64,000 nt of DNA from Bradyrhizobium sp. NFR13 (GTDB lineage Bacteria > Pseudomonadota > Alphaproteobacteria > Rhizobiales > Xanthobacteraceae), in contig NZ_FOTP01000003.1 of assembly GCF_900114605.1 (NCBI RefSeq), forward strand, positions 558,001 to 622,000, written 5' to 3'. The notes under the pieces were generated by a model. The model saw only the letters and a list, made by a program, of their open reading frames with translations, was not told the DNA's origin and ran no database searches. The translations under genes were made by a program, and so were the position numbers. Of the stretch, positions 1,153 through 57,257 are shown one piece after another (position 1 is the stretch's first letter; every line of letters begins with the position of its first letter).

Positions 1153-1409
1153 CGAAACGCCTGTCTGCCCCAAGCTGCCATTTTGGGACGGGGAATCCCG
1201 ATCCAGGTTCGTCATTCCCCGGCAAACCAATTGGTTTGCCTGAGGGCGTGCGTCGCCGGCGAAGCCGGCAGAGCGCGAACCCGGAATCTCAGAGTGTTTT
1301 GCGCTGAACAGGTCGGGATTCCGGGTTCGCGTGCGCGAAGGCGCGCCTGCGCCCCGGAATGACAAGTGGGGTGGGCGCAAAGGCGTTAAACATTTTTTCC
1401 TATATTCCG

Positions 1410-1437
1410 TTGACAATACACCCATAGGGTTTATATT
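1410..1437 (+). promoter_or_regulatory. Sigma-70-type promoter inside repeat copy A
   Basis: TTGACA (1410-1415), a 16-base spacer and TATATT (1432-1437). The same two hexamers with a 16-base spacer occur at the matching place in copy B, while most spacer bases differ between the copies. That is what selection on a promoter would leave. It would direct transcription rightwards through the repeat core. Confidence 0.65.
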
Positions 1438-1801
1438 CCCTCTGTCCTGCCCCACCGAGAGGGGCGATCGCGATCGTCACGTTCGCGGGGTGGGATGCGG
1501 TGGACGCCGGAGATGCGGCGTCACGGGAGATGTGGGTAACGGCTGTCTTCGGGCAGGCCGGATCGTCTGTGGTCAGGATACCACTGGGACAGGCGGCACG
1601 GTTTGTCTTCGGGTGGACGGAGCCTGCAGATCACGGGACGGACGACCAAATCGAAACGCGTTCGGCCTACTCGCTTGAGGCACCCTTCCCATCGCCTTGG
1701 GACATTAATTCGCGATCGGAGCGTTCGTCGAGGCAACGCGCAAGCAACCGAAAAAACACCGCAGGCGGAACGCCGGGCAATCGCTCGGCGCCTCCGAAAG
1801 T

Positions 1802-1845
1802 CCTGATGCACTCTAAAAATTGCGGAAGACCGCATTTGCATCAGG
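1802..1845 (+). other. Conserved two-tier hairpin in repeat copy A (putative structured RNA)
   Basis: The outer stem is CCTGATGCA (1802-1810) with TGCATCAGG (1837-1845). The inner stem is GCGG (1822-1825) with CCGC (1830-1833), closing an AAGA loop. Copy B keeps both stems and the loop but changes the length and bases of the connecting strands. The hairpin lies roughly 360 bases downstream of the promoter-like pair. Confidence 0.55.
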
Positions 1846-2019
1846 CCCAAGGGTGCAACGGGCACGCGGCGTTCCGCACGCCCTCTTTCAGGAGGGTGGG
1901 AATGCAACAGACGACGGCGCCCCCGCGCCGCAAACAACAGGGGTGATGATGCATGTCTGAAGAACAGTGGCTGTTTGAAATTCACATCAGCAACGACGCG
2001 ATATAGTCGCCTCCACCTT

Positions 2020-55293: not shown

Positions 55294-56340
55294 TTGACCC
55301 AGTCCGCGCCCCGCAAGCCGTTCCTCGATGTCCTCGCCGGCCAGCGCCAGGCGGTGCCGCCGCTCTGGATGATGCGACAGGCCGGGCGCTATCTGCCTGA
55401 ATATCGCGAGGTCCGCGCACAGGCCGGCGGTTTCCTCGATCTGTGTTTCAATCCGGATTTCGCCACCGAAGTGACGCTGCAGCCTATCCGGCGCTTCGGC
55501 TTCGATGCCGCGATCATCTTCTCCGACATTCTGGTGATCCCTTATGCCCTCGGCCGCTCGGTCCGCTTCGAGGTCGGTGAGGGCCCGCGGCTCGATCCAT
55601 TGGACACGCCGGAAAAGGTCGCGACGCTCTCACCCGAAGCGGATTTCACCAAACTCGAACCGGTCTATGAGGCACTGCGCCGCGTGCGCGCCGAACTCGA
55701 TCCCAAGATTACGCTGATCGGCTTCTGCGGTGCGCCATGGACCGTTGCGACCTACATGGTCGCCGGCAAGGGCACGCCGGATCAGGCGCCGGCGCGCATG
55801 ATGGCCTATCGGCATCCGGAGGCCTTCGCAAAAATCATCGACACCATCGTCGAGAACTCGATCACCTATCTGCTGAGCCAGCTCAAGGCCGGCGCCGATG
55901 TGCTGCAGATCTTCGATACCTGGGCCGGCATACTGCCTGCGGCGGAATTCCAGCGCTGGTCTGTCGAGCCGACTAAGCGCATCATCGCCGGCGTGCGCGC
56001 CAAGGTTCCGAATGCGAAGATCATCGGCTTCCCGCGCGGCGCCGGCGCGCTACTGCCGAGCTATGTCGGCGCAACCGGTGTCGACGCCGTGAGCATCGAC
56101 TGGGCCGCCGAGCCGTCATTCGTGCGCGAGCGGGTGCAGAGCCACGTCGCCGTACAGGGCAATCTCGATCCGCTGGTACTGATCGCTGGCGGCGCCGCGC
56201 TCGATCGCGCGGTCGATGACGTGCTGGCGAATTATGCCAGCGGACGCTTCATCTTCAATCTCGGCCACGGCATCCAGCCGGAAACGCCGATTGACCATGT
56301 GGAGCAGATGGTGAAGCGAGTGCGGGACTTCAGGGGGTAG
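55294..56340 (+). CDS. hemE: Uroporphyrinogen decarboxylase
   Basis: 348 residues from TTG 55294 ([12 protein letters not shown]), giving the normal family length; upstream frame is not HemE-like. Motifs: [51 protein letters not shown] and [12 protein letters not shown]. It decarboxylates uroporphyrinogen III to coproporphyrinogen III. It is transcribed away from hemF and ends before repeat copy B. Confidence 0.96.
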
Positions 56341-56349
56341 GTCATTCTC

Positions 56350-56420
56350 GTCATTCCGGGGCGGCTGCGCGCCTTCGCGCAGGCGAACCCGCTGCGCGGG
56401 CCGTCCTGCCCCGGAATGAC
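56350..56420. repeat. REP-like palindrome after hemE
   Basis: GTCATTCCGGGGC (56350-56362) pairs perfectly with GCCCCGGAATGAC (56408-56420), with a nested GC-rich stem (TGCGCG/CGCGCA) between. The same TCATTCCGGGG arms occur at the outer part of both long repeats (near 1340-1365 and 57050-57070). Confidence 0.75.
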
Positions 56421-56581
56421 AAGCGAGAACGCTTTCTCTTTTCAACTGTCAAACAGCCACTTCGCTTCAGACATGCGTCATCACCCCTGTTGTTTGCGGC
56501 GCGGGGGCGCCGTCGTCTCTTGCATTCCCACCCCCTTGTGAGAGGGCGTGCGGAACGCCGGGTGCCCGTTGCCCCCTTGGG

Positions 56582-56622
56582 CCTGATGCGATGCGGTCTT
56601 CCGCAATTGAGAGTGCATCAGG
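56582..56622 (-). other. Conserved two-tier hairpin in repeat copy B
   Basis: CCTGATGC (56582-56589) with GCATCAGG (56615-56622), inner GCGG (56593-56596) with CCGC (56601-56604). The two stems and the inner loop equal those of copy A, while the connecting strands differ in length and sequence. Confidence 0.55.
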
Positions 56623-56979
56623 ACTTTCGGAGGCGTCAGGCAAGTGCCCGACGTTCCGCCTGCGGTGTTTTTTCGGTTGCTTGCACTTTGCCTCGACGAA
56701 CGCTCCGATCGCGAATTAAAGTCCCAAGGCGATGGGAAGGGAGCCTCAAGCACTTGGCCGAACGCGTTTCGAGTTGGTCGTCCGTCACACTGTCCAGGGC
56801 TCTGTCCATCCCAGGGTCGGCCGTGTCCTTGCCAGTGGCAGTGCTGGCGCAGATCCGTCCTGCCCGAAGACAGACGTCCCCCATGAACCGCGTAACGCCG
56901 CATCTCCGGCGTCCACCGCACCCTGCCCCGCGAACGTGACGATCGCGATCGCCCCTCTCGGTGGGGCAGGACGATGGGG

Positions 56980-57007
56980 AATATAAACCTGACTGGGATG
57001 ATGTCAA
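56980..57007 (-). promoter_or_regulatory. Sigma-70-type promoter inside repeat copy B
   Basis: On the minus strand: TTGACA (57007-57002), 16-base spacer, TATATT (56985-56980). The hexamers equal those of copy A and the spacer differs at many positions. Confidence 0.65.
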
Positions 57008-57257
57008 CGGGGAATAGGAAAAAATGTTTAGGCACTGTCTTGCCGCCCCACACTGTCATTCCGGGGCGACTGCGCGCCTTCGCGCAGGCGAACCCGGAAT
57101 CTCAGCATGTTCAGCGCAAAACAGTCAAAGATTCCCCGCCACTCCAAGTGGAGTGGCTGAGGTTCGCGCTCTGCCGGCTTCGCCGGCGACGCACGCCCCG
57201 GAATGACGAGCTTGGATCAAGATTCCCTGCCGGGGAACGACGGTGGAGGTCTTCGCC

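Follow-up and report, generated by a model that had tools for sequence, protein, structure and literature searches.

The two long inverted repeats in the window, by which we mean the whole 64,000-nucleotide stretch of Bradyrhizobium sp. NFR13 DNA analysed here, are probably copies of a multicopy non-coding RNA gene that is built like a miniature rRNA transcription unit, with start signals of the rRNA type and a boxA at its end. The comparison of sequences on which this reading is based establishes the number of copies, the conservation of the promoter, two RNA domains, the identity of the terminal boxA with that of the rrn leader, concerted evolution and one recent insertion. The original prediction of an inverted repeat pair is borne out, as copy A (1193-1980, + strand) and copy B (56441-57243, - strand) can be aligned across their whole span and are 85% identical over the promoter and RNA portion. 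The pair itself is not special: A and B are two of about 30 dispersed copies in a genome of the Tardiphaga type (Nitrobacteraceae), and their inverted orientation is incidental.

The ~790-bp unit is a composite of a REP and an RNA gene. From 5' to 3' it is made up of a Br-REP2-like palindrome, a gap of ~33 nt, a T-rich block, a promoter of the form TTGACA-16/17-TATATT and an RNA of ~520 nt. In copy A, the unstranded palindromic repeat spans 153 bp (1211..1363; GTCATTCC ... GGAATGAC) and is followed on the + strand by the conserved, putatively UP-like upstream block AAACATTTTTTCCTAT (1388..1403), the -35 hexamer TTGACA (1410..1415) and the -10 hexamer TATATT (1432..1437). The 5' RNA domain, located with model R2 (1444..1525, +; 85 bits, E 5e-13), and the 3' RNA domain with its long closing stem, located with model R1 (1760..1883, +; 83 bits, E 6e-16; the E-values of both home-built models are rough), show covariation and flank a central RNA part that is more variable in the alignments (1526..1759, +). 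The region 1881..1943 begins with a CCCTC..GAGGG hairpin (1881-1896, +) and ends in the tail GGCGC-CCCC-GCGCC with a downstream GGGG (1910-1943, +), an arrangement that, judged by eye, is a possible H-type pseudoknot; across the alignments of copies, the tail of the element exists in two alternative forms. Copy A closes with the boxA-like sequence GGCTGTTTGAAA (1969..1980, +), which has one mismatch to the rrn-leader sequence. The corresponding parts of copy B, all on the - strand except for the unstranded palindromic repeat (57055..57207), are the upstream block (57014..57029), the -35 TTGACA (57002..57007), the -10 TATATT (56980..56985), the 5' RNA domain (56891..56972; 86.9 bits), the 3' RNA domain (56544..56664; 89.5 bits), the tail GGCGC-CCCC-GCGCC..GGGG (56484..56517) and the boxA-like GGCTGTTTGACA (56447..56458), which is identical to the rrn-leader sequence. 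Searches of the window with R1 and R2 gave 83-90 bits on the transcribed strand versus 20-25 on the other; copy B was among the 20 sequences behind each model, and because both models were built from family members, their hits locate the domains and are no independent test of them. The 3'-end boxA, gene conversion among the copies and the make-up of the unit from a REP and an RNA gene were all absent from the earlier description.

Further copies were sought and found, both in the same genome and in its relatives. With the 591-bp promoter and RNA part of copy A as query, at least 40 matches were obtained in the own genome of 6.22 Mb (G000; 40 of 58 candidates scored), 23 of which cover at least 488 bases while many others are cut by contig ends, and at least 29, including one 45-bp stub, in G016, a relative with a complete genome (40 of 52 candidates were scored there). 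Such numbers are far above what chance would give. Some match to the same query is present in 30 of 81 genomes from a mixed sample of relatives, and a core pattern with 22 fixed bases picks out 38 stretches, all within three Tardiphaga assemblies. The 5' domain model reaches further and finds 1 to 35 matches in each of 41 out of 119 sampled genomes of the family, representing 13 of 40 genera, the own genome having at least 31 (with 38 candidates scored in each genome); across the order, 10 of 247 genomes give a match, nine of the same family and one elsewhere with a single weak hit, and the filters in both searches were strict and lose weak matches. Many contigs of G000, G001 and G009 end inside an element, which thus breaks short-read assemblies of the genus and makes their copy counts lower bounds. 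A blastn search (E<=1e-5) of 72,556 plasmid records and 50,697 from phages returned no match to window positions 1432-1980, a query that diverged copies, such as those of the Bradyrhizobium type, may escape. Evidence for similar repeats in Bradyrhizobium comes from loci L094 and L129-L158, a resemblance by which G041 and G165 are putatively assigned to Bradyrhizobium. No account of the RNA family was found in the openly licensed PMC papers that were covered, and the genus names have no match in PMC2267715. With about 30 copies in a genome, a 5' domain found in these 13 genera and no match in Rfam, a folded RNA of ~520 nt would be a large unexplained investment in RNA. As a separate matter, a replication-polarity signal was considered and rejected, since the strands of the copies in G016, inspected by eye with the origin assumed near base 1, have no consistent bias.

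The promoter hexamers TTGACA and TATATT are identical in copies A and B at a spacing of 16 bp, as had been predicted, and eight of the 16 spacer bases differ. Over 65 copies from three genomes of the genus (G000, G016 and G002), the mean majority is 99% for the -35 hexamer, 94% for the -10 hexamer and 93% for the upstream block versus 71% for the spacer, so the hexamers are more conserved than the spacer in other copies too, which supports the suggestion that selection acts on transcription. The accompanying idea that the body diverges freely did not hold up: in the same copies, the first 80 nt of the RNA part have a mean majority of 98% and the body one of 92%, both above the promoter spacer, and the body contains two domains whose RNA structure is supported by covariation. 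Outside the five closest genomes (some of the copies being from the same genus), 32 of 56 copies have upstream hexamers that together reach a score of 10 or more out of 12, compared with 19 of 2000 random windows; these windows, like those behind the boxA background, were drawn from element loci with the element included, and the background rates are therefore overstated. In the Bradyrhizobium-type genome G165 the promoter score reaches 10 in just 1 of 19 copies. With hexamers conserved above their spacer and present in other genomes, G165 excepted, the element has the hallmarks expected of an RNA gene transcribed by a sigma-70-type polymerase.

The RNA is structured, as two domains contain compensatory two-sided changes above shuffled and slid controls. 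The alignments comprise 20 copies per domain, of which all but two (18) belong to other species or genera, so that the covariation, for which the original prediction had proposed a check, extends across species and genera in both the 5' and the 3' domain. For the 3' domain, pairing holds in 98.9% of 460 cells, two-sided changes affect 7 of 23 pairs, and the 17 two-sided cells compare with a shuffled mean of 4.4 (a value reached in 0 of 500 shuffles). The 5' domain has 94.7% of 418 cells paired and two-sided changes in 4 of 21 pairs, with 11 two-sided cells versus a shuffled mean of 2.7 (0 of 500); its pair count is matched by 12 of 500 shuffles. When the partners are slid, pairing drops to 26-57% in both domains. 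Folding of single copies gives a graded picture: the fold of copy B beats 100 of 100 shuffles (z -3.5), and that of copy A beats 97 of 100 (z -2.2) and is only moderately better than these. No match reaching the gathering score of Rfam 15 is present in the window, and among six matches at E<=1 in ten loci none falls on an element. A resemblance by eye to a hammerhead-like ribozyme (CTGATG/CGAAA) is not preserved in other genera and was discarded. Off the element, at L078:59-103 (-), there is a match resembling a Guanidine-II riboswitch (35.7 bits, gathering score 32).

The boxA at the 3' end links the element to the rRNA operons. The rrn leader of the own genome contains, about 260 nt before 16S, the sequence GGCTGTTTGACAAGTTGAAAAGAAGAAAG (GGCTGTTTGACAAGTTGAA), which we take to be the boxA of rrn leaders in general. 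Most Tardiphaga copies terminate in GGCTGTTTGACA or a form with one mismatch; the ending is GGCTGTTTGACAGTTGAATC in many copies and GGCTGTTTGACAGTTGAAAAGAGAAAG in copy B. The exact 12-mer has 26 occurrences in the whole assembly, namely at 22 element ends, where it is on the transcribed strand and agrees with the own rrn leader in 12 of 12 bases, in the two rrn leaders and at the ends of two members of a second RNA family; the same search with the 12-mer backward, as a control, gave two hits. Within 130 nt, in the five closest genomes, the exact 12-mer follows 44 of 78 copies and a form with at most one mismatch 61 of 78, over a likewise overstated background of 1.4% of 2680 windows, and its position is 65-101 nt past the 3' domain. 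This restriction of the exact sequence to rRNA operons and two RNA families provides a concrete handle, NusB/S10, on the factors that act on these RNAs. At up to one mismatch the motif is absent from all 18 tabulated copies of G165 and all seven of G033, which means that the core RNA can do without boxA. Weaker forms are visible by eye at L145 and, further downstream, at L085. In G160, L174 and L178 have a short boxA-like GGCTGTTT 15 nt (start to start) before the full motif, as if in tandem.

We propose the following sequence of events. A promoter of the sigma-70 type, together with the T-rich upstream block, would produce an RNA of ~520 nt starting at about 1444 in copy A and 56972 in copy B. 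The transcript is predicted to consist of a 5' domain folded as a closed hairpin, a centre that varies among copies and a 3' domain under a long stem, and the rRNA-leader boxA would be transcribed last. NusB-S10 and other Nus factors assembling on boxA would then modify the polymerase during elongation, on its way out of the element toward a mostly convergent neighbour. Gene conversion would keep the copies uniform, and new sites would occasionally be gained along with the upstream REP. Transcription, binding of Nus factors, an effect on the polymerase and a function of the folded RNA in trans are what we infer here from sequence. Placed at the 3' end, boxA may modify the polymerase for transcription of the sequence ahead, may recruit NusB-S10 for folding or processing of the RNA, or may titrate NusB-S10.

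The transcript of copy A would face the 3' end of an opposite-strand gene of the GGDEF/EAL type ending at 2020, and that of copy B the 3' end of an opposite-strand hemE ending at 56340, so the predicted aim at a gene on the other strand stands for these two; it is not universal, as the next gene is convergent in 81 of the 131 copies with a called downstream gene. These copies derive from 166 loci, 32 of which were dropped for having no recognisable 3' domain (11 from G165, L121 and others mostly at contig ends), leaving 134 that were scored. Of the 81 copies with a convergent next gene, 62 have a boxA with at most one mismatch, versus 14 of the 50 with a co-directional one (Fisher p 6e-8, for copies that are not independent and genes taken from crude codon-usage calls). 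G165 and G033 have no boxA in either orientation class, and excluding them gives 62 of 68 versus 14 of 38. Collapsed to the 30 loci shared among the five closest genomes, two of which as clustered chain two loci of one genome, boxA occurs at 18 of 21 convergent and 4 of 9 co-directional loci (p 0.03), or at 20 of 21 and 5 of 9 when up to two mismatches are allowed (p 0.02). The link between boxA and orientation at the locus level is modest. Because boxA varies with the orientation of the downstream gene, the copies could serve as natural replicates for the effects of a Nus-modified polymerase on neighbouring genes. Convergent genes flank 15 of 29 loci, and in the window 4 of 23 gaps of at least 100 bp are convergent, with copies A and B occupying two of these four. 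At L018, L109, L190 and L204, which are one shared locus in four genomes, an element without boxA is located shortly upstream of a co-directional gene, and L076 in a fifth genome is, by eye, apparently the same locus.

These observations could also be explained by an element that acts in cis, in the direction of the original prediction: it would send polymerases into a convergent gene from its 3' end as antisense or interference, with boxA conferring processivity and the body serving mainly as a long leader. The frequency of convergent neighbours and the bias of boxA toward them outside G165 and G033 are in its favour, and a home-made scan adds that 60 of 66 copies have no intrinsic-terminator-like site within 300 nt past the element (3 of 66 have one inside it). 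Against it, the RNA structure is kept across species and genera, all tabulated copies of G165 and G033 lack a boxA at one mismatch or fewer, and the neighbours of copies A and B are functionally unrelated. We consider such a cis-acting element rather unlikely.

A different role for the same boxA would be that of a decoy, in which NusB-S10 is titrated by the numerous boxA sites that abundant RNAs carry, so that rRNA transcription or the level of free S10 is tuned. The confinement of all 26 exact 12-mers of the assembly to rrn leaders and the ends of two RNA families agrees with this, as do the many copies and their conserved promoters, but the RNA persists in many copies in G165 and G033, whose tabulated copies have no such boxA within one mismatch, and a dependence on the orientation of the next gene is unexpected for a decoy acting in trans. 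We regard titration as the purpose of the element as quite improbable.

The copies evolve together. For 17 locus pairs of G000 and G016, identities of the flanking genes fall mostly between 90 and 97% (81-97% overall; one of 34 comparisons had no alignment), and the RNA bodies have a mean identity of 90.3% at these corresponding loci versus 90.4% for 577 non-corresponding pairs; a copy finds its best match at the corresponding locus in 1 of the 17 pairs. Corresponding copies are hence no more alike than non-corresponding ones, which indicates concerted evolution. In G000 and G016 linkage between variable sites approaches the shuffled level beyond about 80-160 bp, whereas in G002 it decays more slowly and is still above that level at 320-600 bp. 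This decay suggests an exchange of short tracts among the copies, most simply by gene conversion.

Most loci are shared between species, 24 of 30 locus clusters containing copies from at least two genomes, and one is clearly recent. At L009, between two co-directional genes, G000 has an 842-bp insert consisting of REP, element, boxA and some 3' flank where four relatives have 26 bp (empty sites compared through L227-L233). The 3' flank of L009 has a 16-nt stretch in common with the flank of L017. Gain of a REP together with an element at a site that is empty in four relatives is what would be seen if the unit were a selfish, MITE-like or REP-borne repeat that spreads as DNA, with promoter and fold as by-products. 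The REP association points the same way: of 76 copies from the five closest genomes, 65 have a REP motif no more than 265 nt upstream of the promoter region (median distance 33 nt), compared with 20 of 2963 control windows, which are mostly in genes and so not matched intergenic sequence. In other genera, inspection by eye finds different palindromes or none at the REP position. Against a DNA-level repeat stand the compensatory two-sided changes and the promoters conserved beyond the nearest genomes, the sharing of most loci among species, the absence of a visible target-site duplication at L009, the one site compared with four empty relatives, and the absence of Y1 (RAYT-type) transposases from the own genome, in which PF01797 has no match (the control was positive in 5 of 14 genomes). 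A transposon with its own enzyme was rejected for the latter reason, within a search limited to the Y1 type, and spread as mere DNA is, in our judgement, very doubtful as an explanation of the unit. A small protein or peptide gene can practically be dismissed, as the original prediction already held a protein to be unlikely: open frames do run across the copies (for example 148 and 198 aa in A, 149 and 192 aa in B), but element lengths modulo 3 are scattered over the 65 copies (26/21/18), indels of 1-2 bases occur all along the element, and no frame is open throughout, the longest stop-free run in each of the six frames dropping to 31-54 aa somewhere.

The 3' ends of the second RNA family account for the two remaining exact 12-mers in the assembly. 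The two members concerned, L237:807-1264 and L238:746-1235, are located in G000:C6 near 130.5-131.0 kb and 682.0-682.4 kb. They measure ~430-490 nt and have the layout TTGACA-15/17-TATATG/TATATT, 5' hairpin, long 3' stem, CCCCTC hairpin and boxA, with compensatory differences between L237 and L238 in the 3' stem. Model R1 does not match this family, and the single hit of R2, at the position in L237 where the domain would be expected, is very weak (11.2 bits, E 0.26), so that a remote kinship of the 5' domains of the two families is possible; Rfam yields one weak hit and no credible match on these loci. Matches to the second family are present in 25 of 61 genomes including the own one, with up to 13 each (10 candidates scored per genome), and among 12 of its loci the promoter score is at least 10 in 11 and a boxA with at most one mismatch is present in seven. 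We tentatively suggest that the Nitrobacteraceae possess a superfamily of at least two such RNA families, consisting of dispersed rRNA-like non-coding genes with a TTGACA-TATATT promoter, the boxA of the rrn operons and an rRNA-like concerted evolution, which might produce a class of abundant stable RNAs by a Nus-modified polymerase in step with ribosome synthesis.

A close known counterpart is the rrn leader with its boxA, which likewise combines a TTGACA..TATA promoter, an untranslated RNA, an identical 12-nt boxA-like sequence and a multicopy state; rRNA genes also undergo concerted evolution, as the copies of the element do here. In contrast, the element has its boxA at the 3' end with no rRNA after it, whereas in rrn operons boxA is at the start, and it occurs in more than 20 copies in many unrelated intergenic regions compared with two rrn operons in the assembly. 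The boxA of the element thus does not lie upstream of the RNA whose synthesis it would serve, but follows the 3' domain. The bcr1 repeats of Bacillus cereus are similarly dispersed, transcribed intergenic repeats with a conserved RNA fold and many copies; the present element differs from them in its length of ~520 nt, its own promoter, its rrn boxA and its conservation over several genera. A boxA outside rRNA that promotes transcription of a long untranslated RNA is also found upstream of CRISPR arrays, as cited in PMC7862264, where it precedes the RNA, in contrast to the present element, in which it follows. For the upstream part of the unit alone there is a published match. Of the Br-REP1 and Br-REP2 repeats of Bradyrhizobium and Rhodopseudomonas, Br-REP2 is a short palindrome in intergenic or 3'-UTR regions, according to the sections of PMC5082802 that were covered, and the 153-bp palindrome upstream of copies A and B resembles its consensus, GATTCCGGGTTCG...CCCCGGAATGA, by eye and shares the intergenic placement. 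Those sections do not describe the adjoining RNA gene, but they mention without detail (data not shown) a larger repeat containing Br-REP2, which could include it. Copy B has REPs on both sides, a second one being located downstream of it at window positions 56350-56420.
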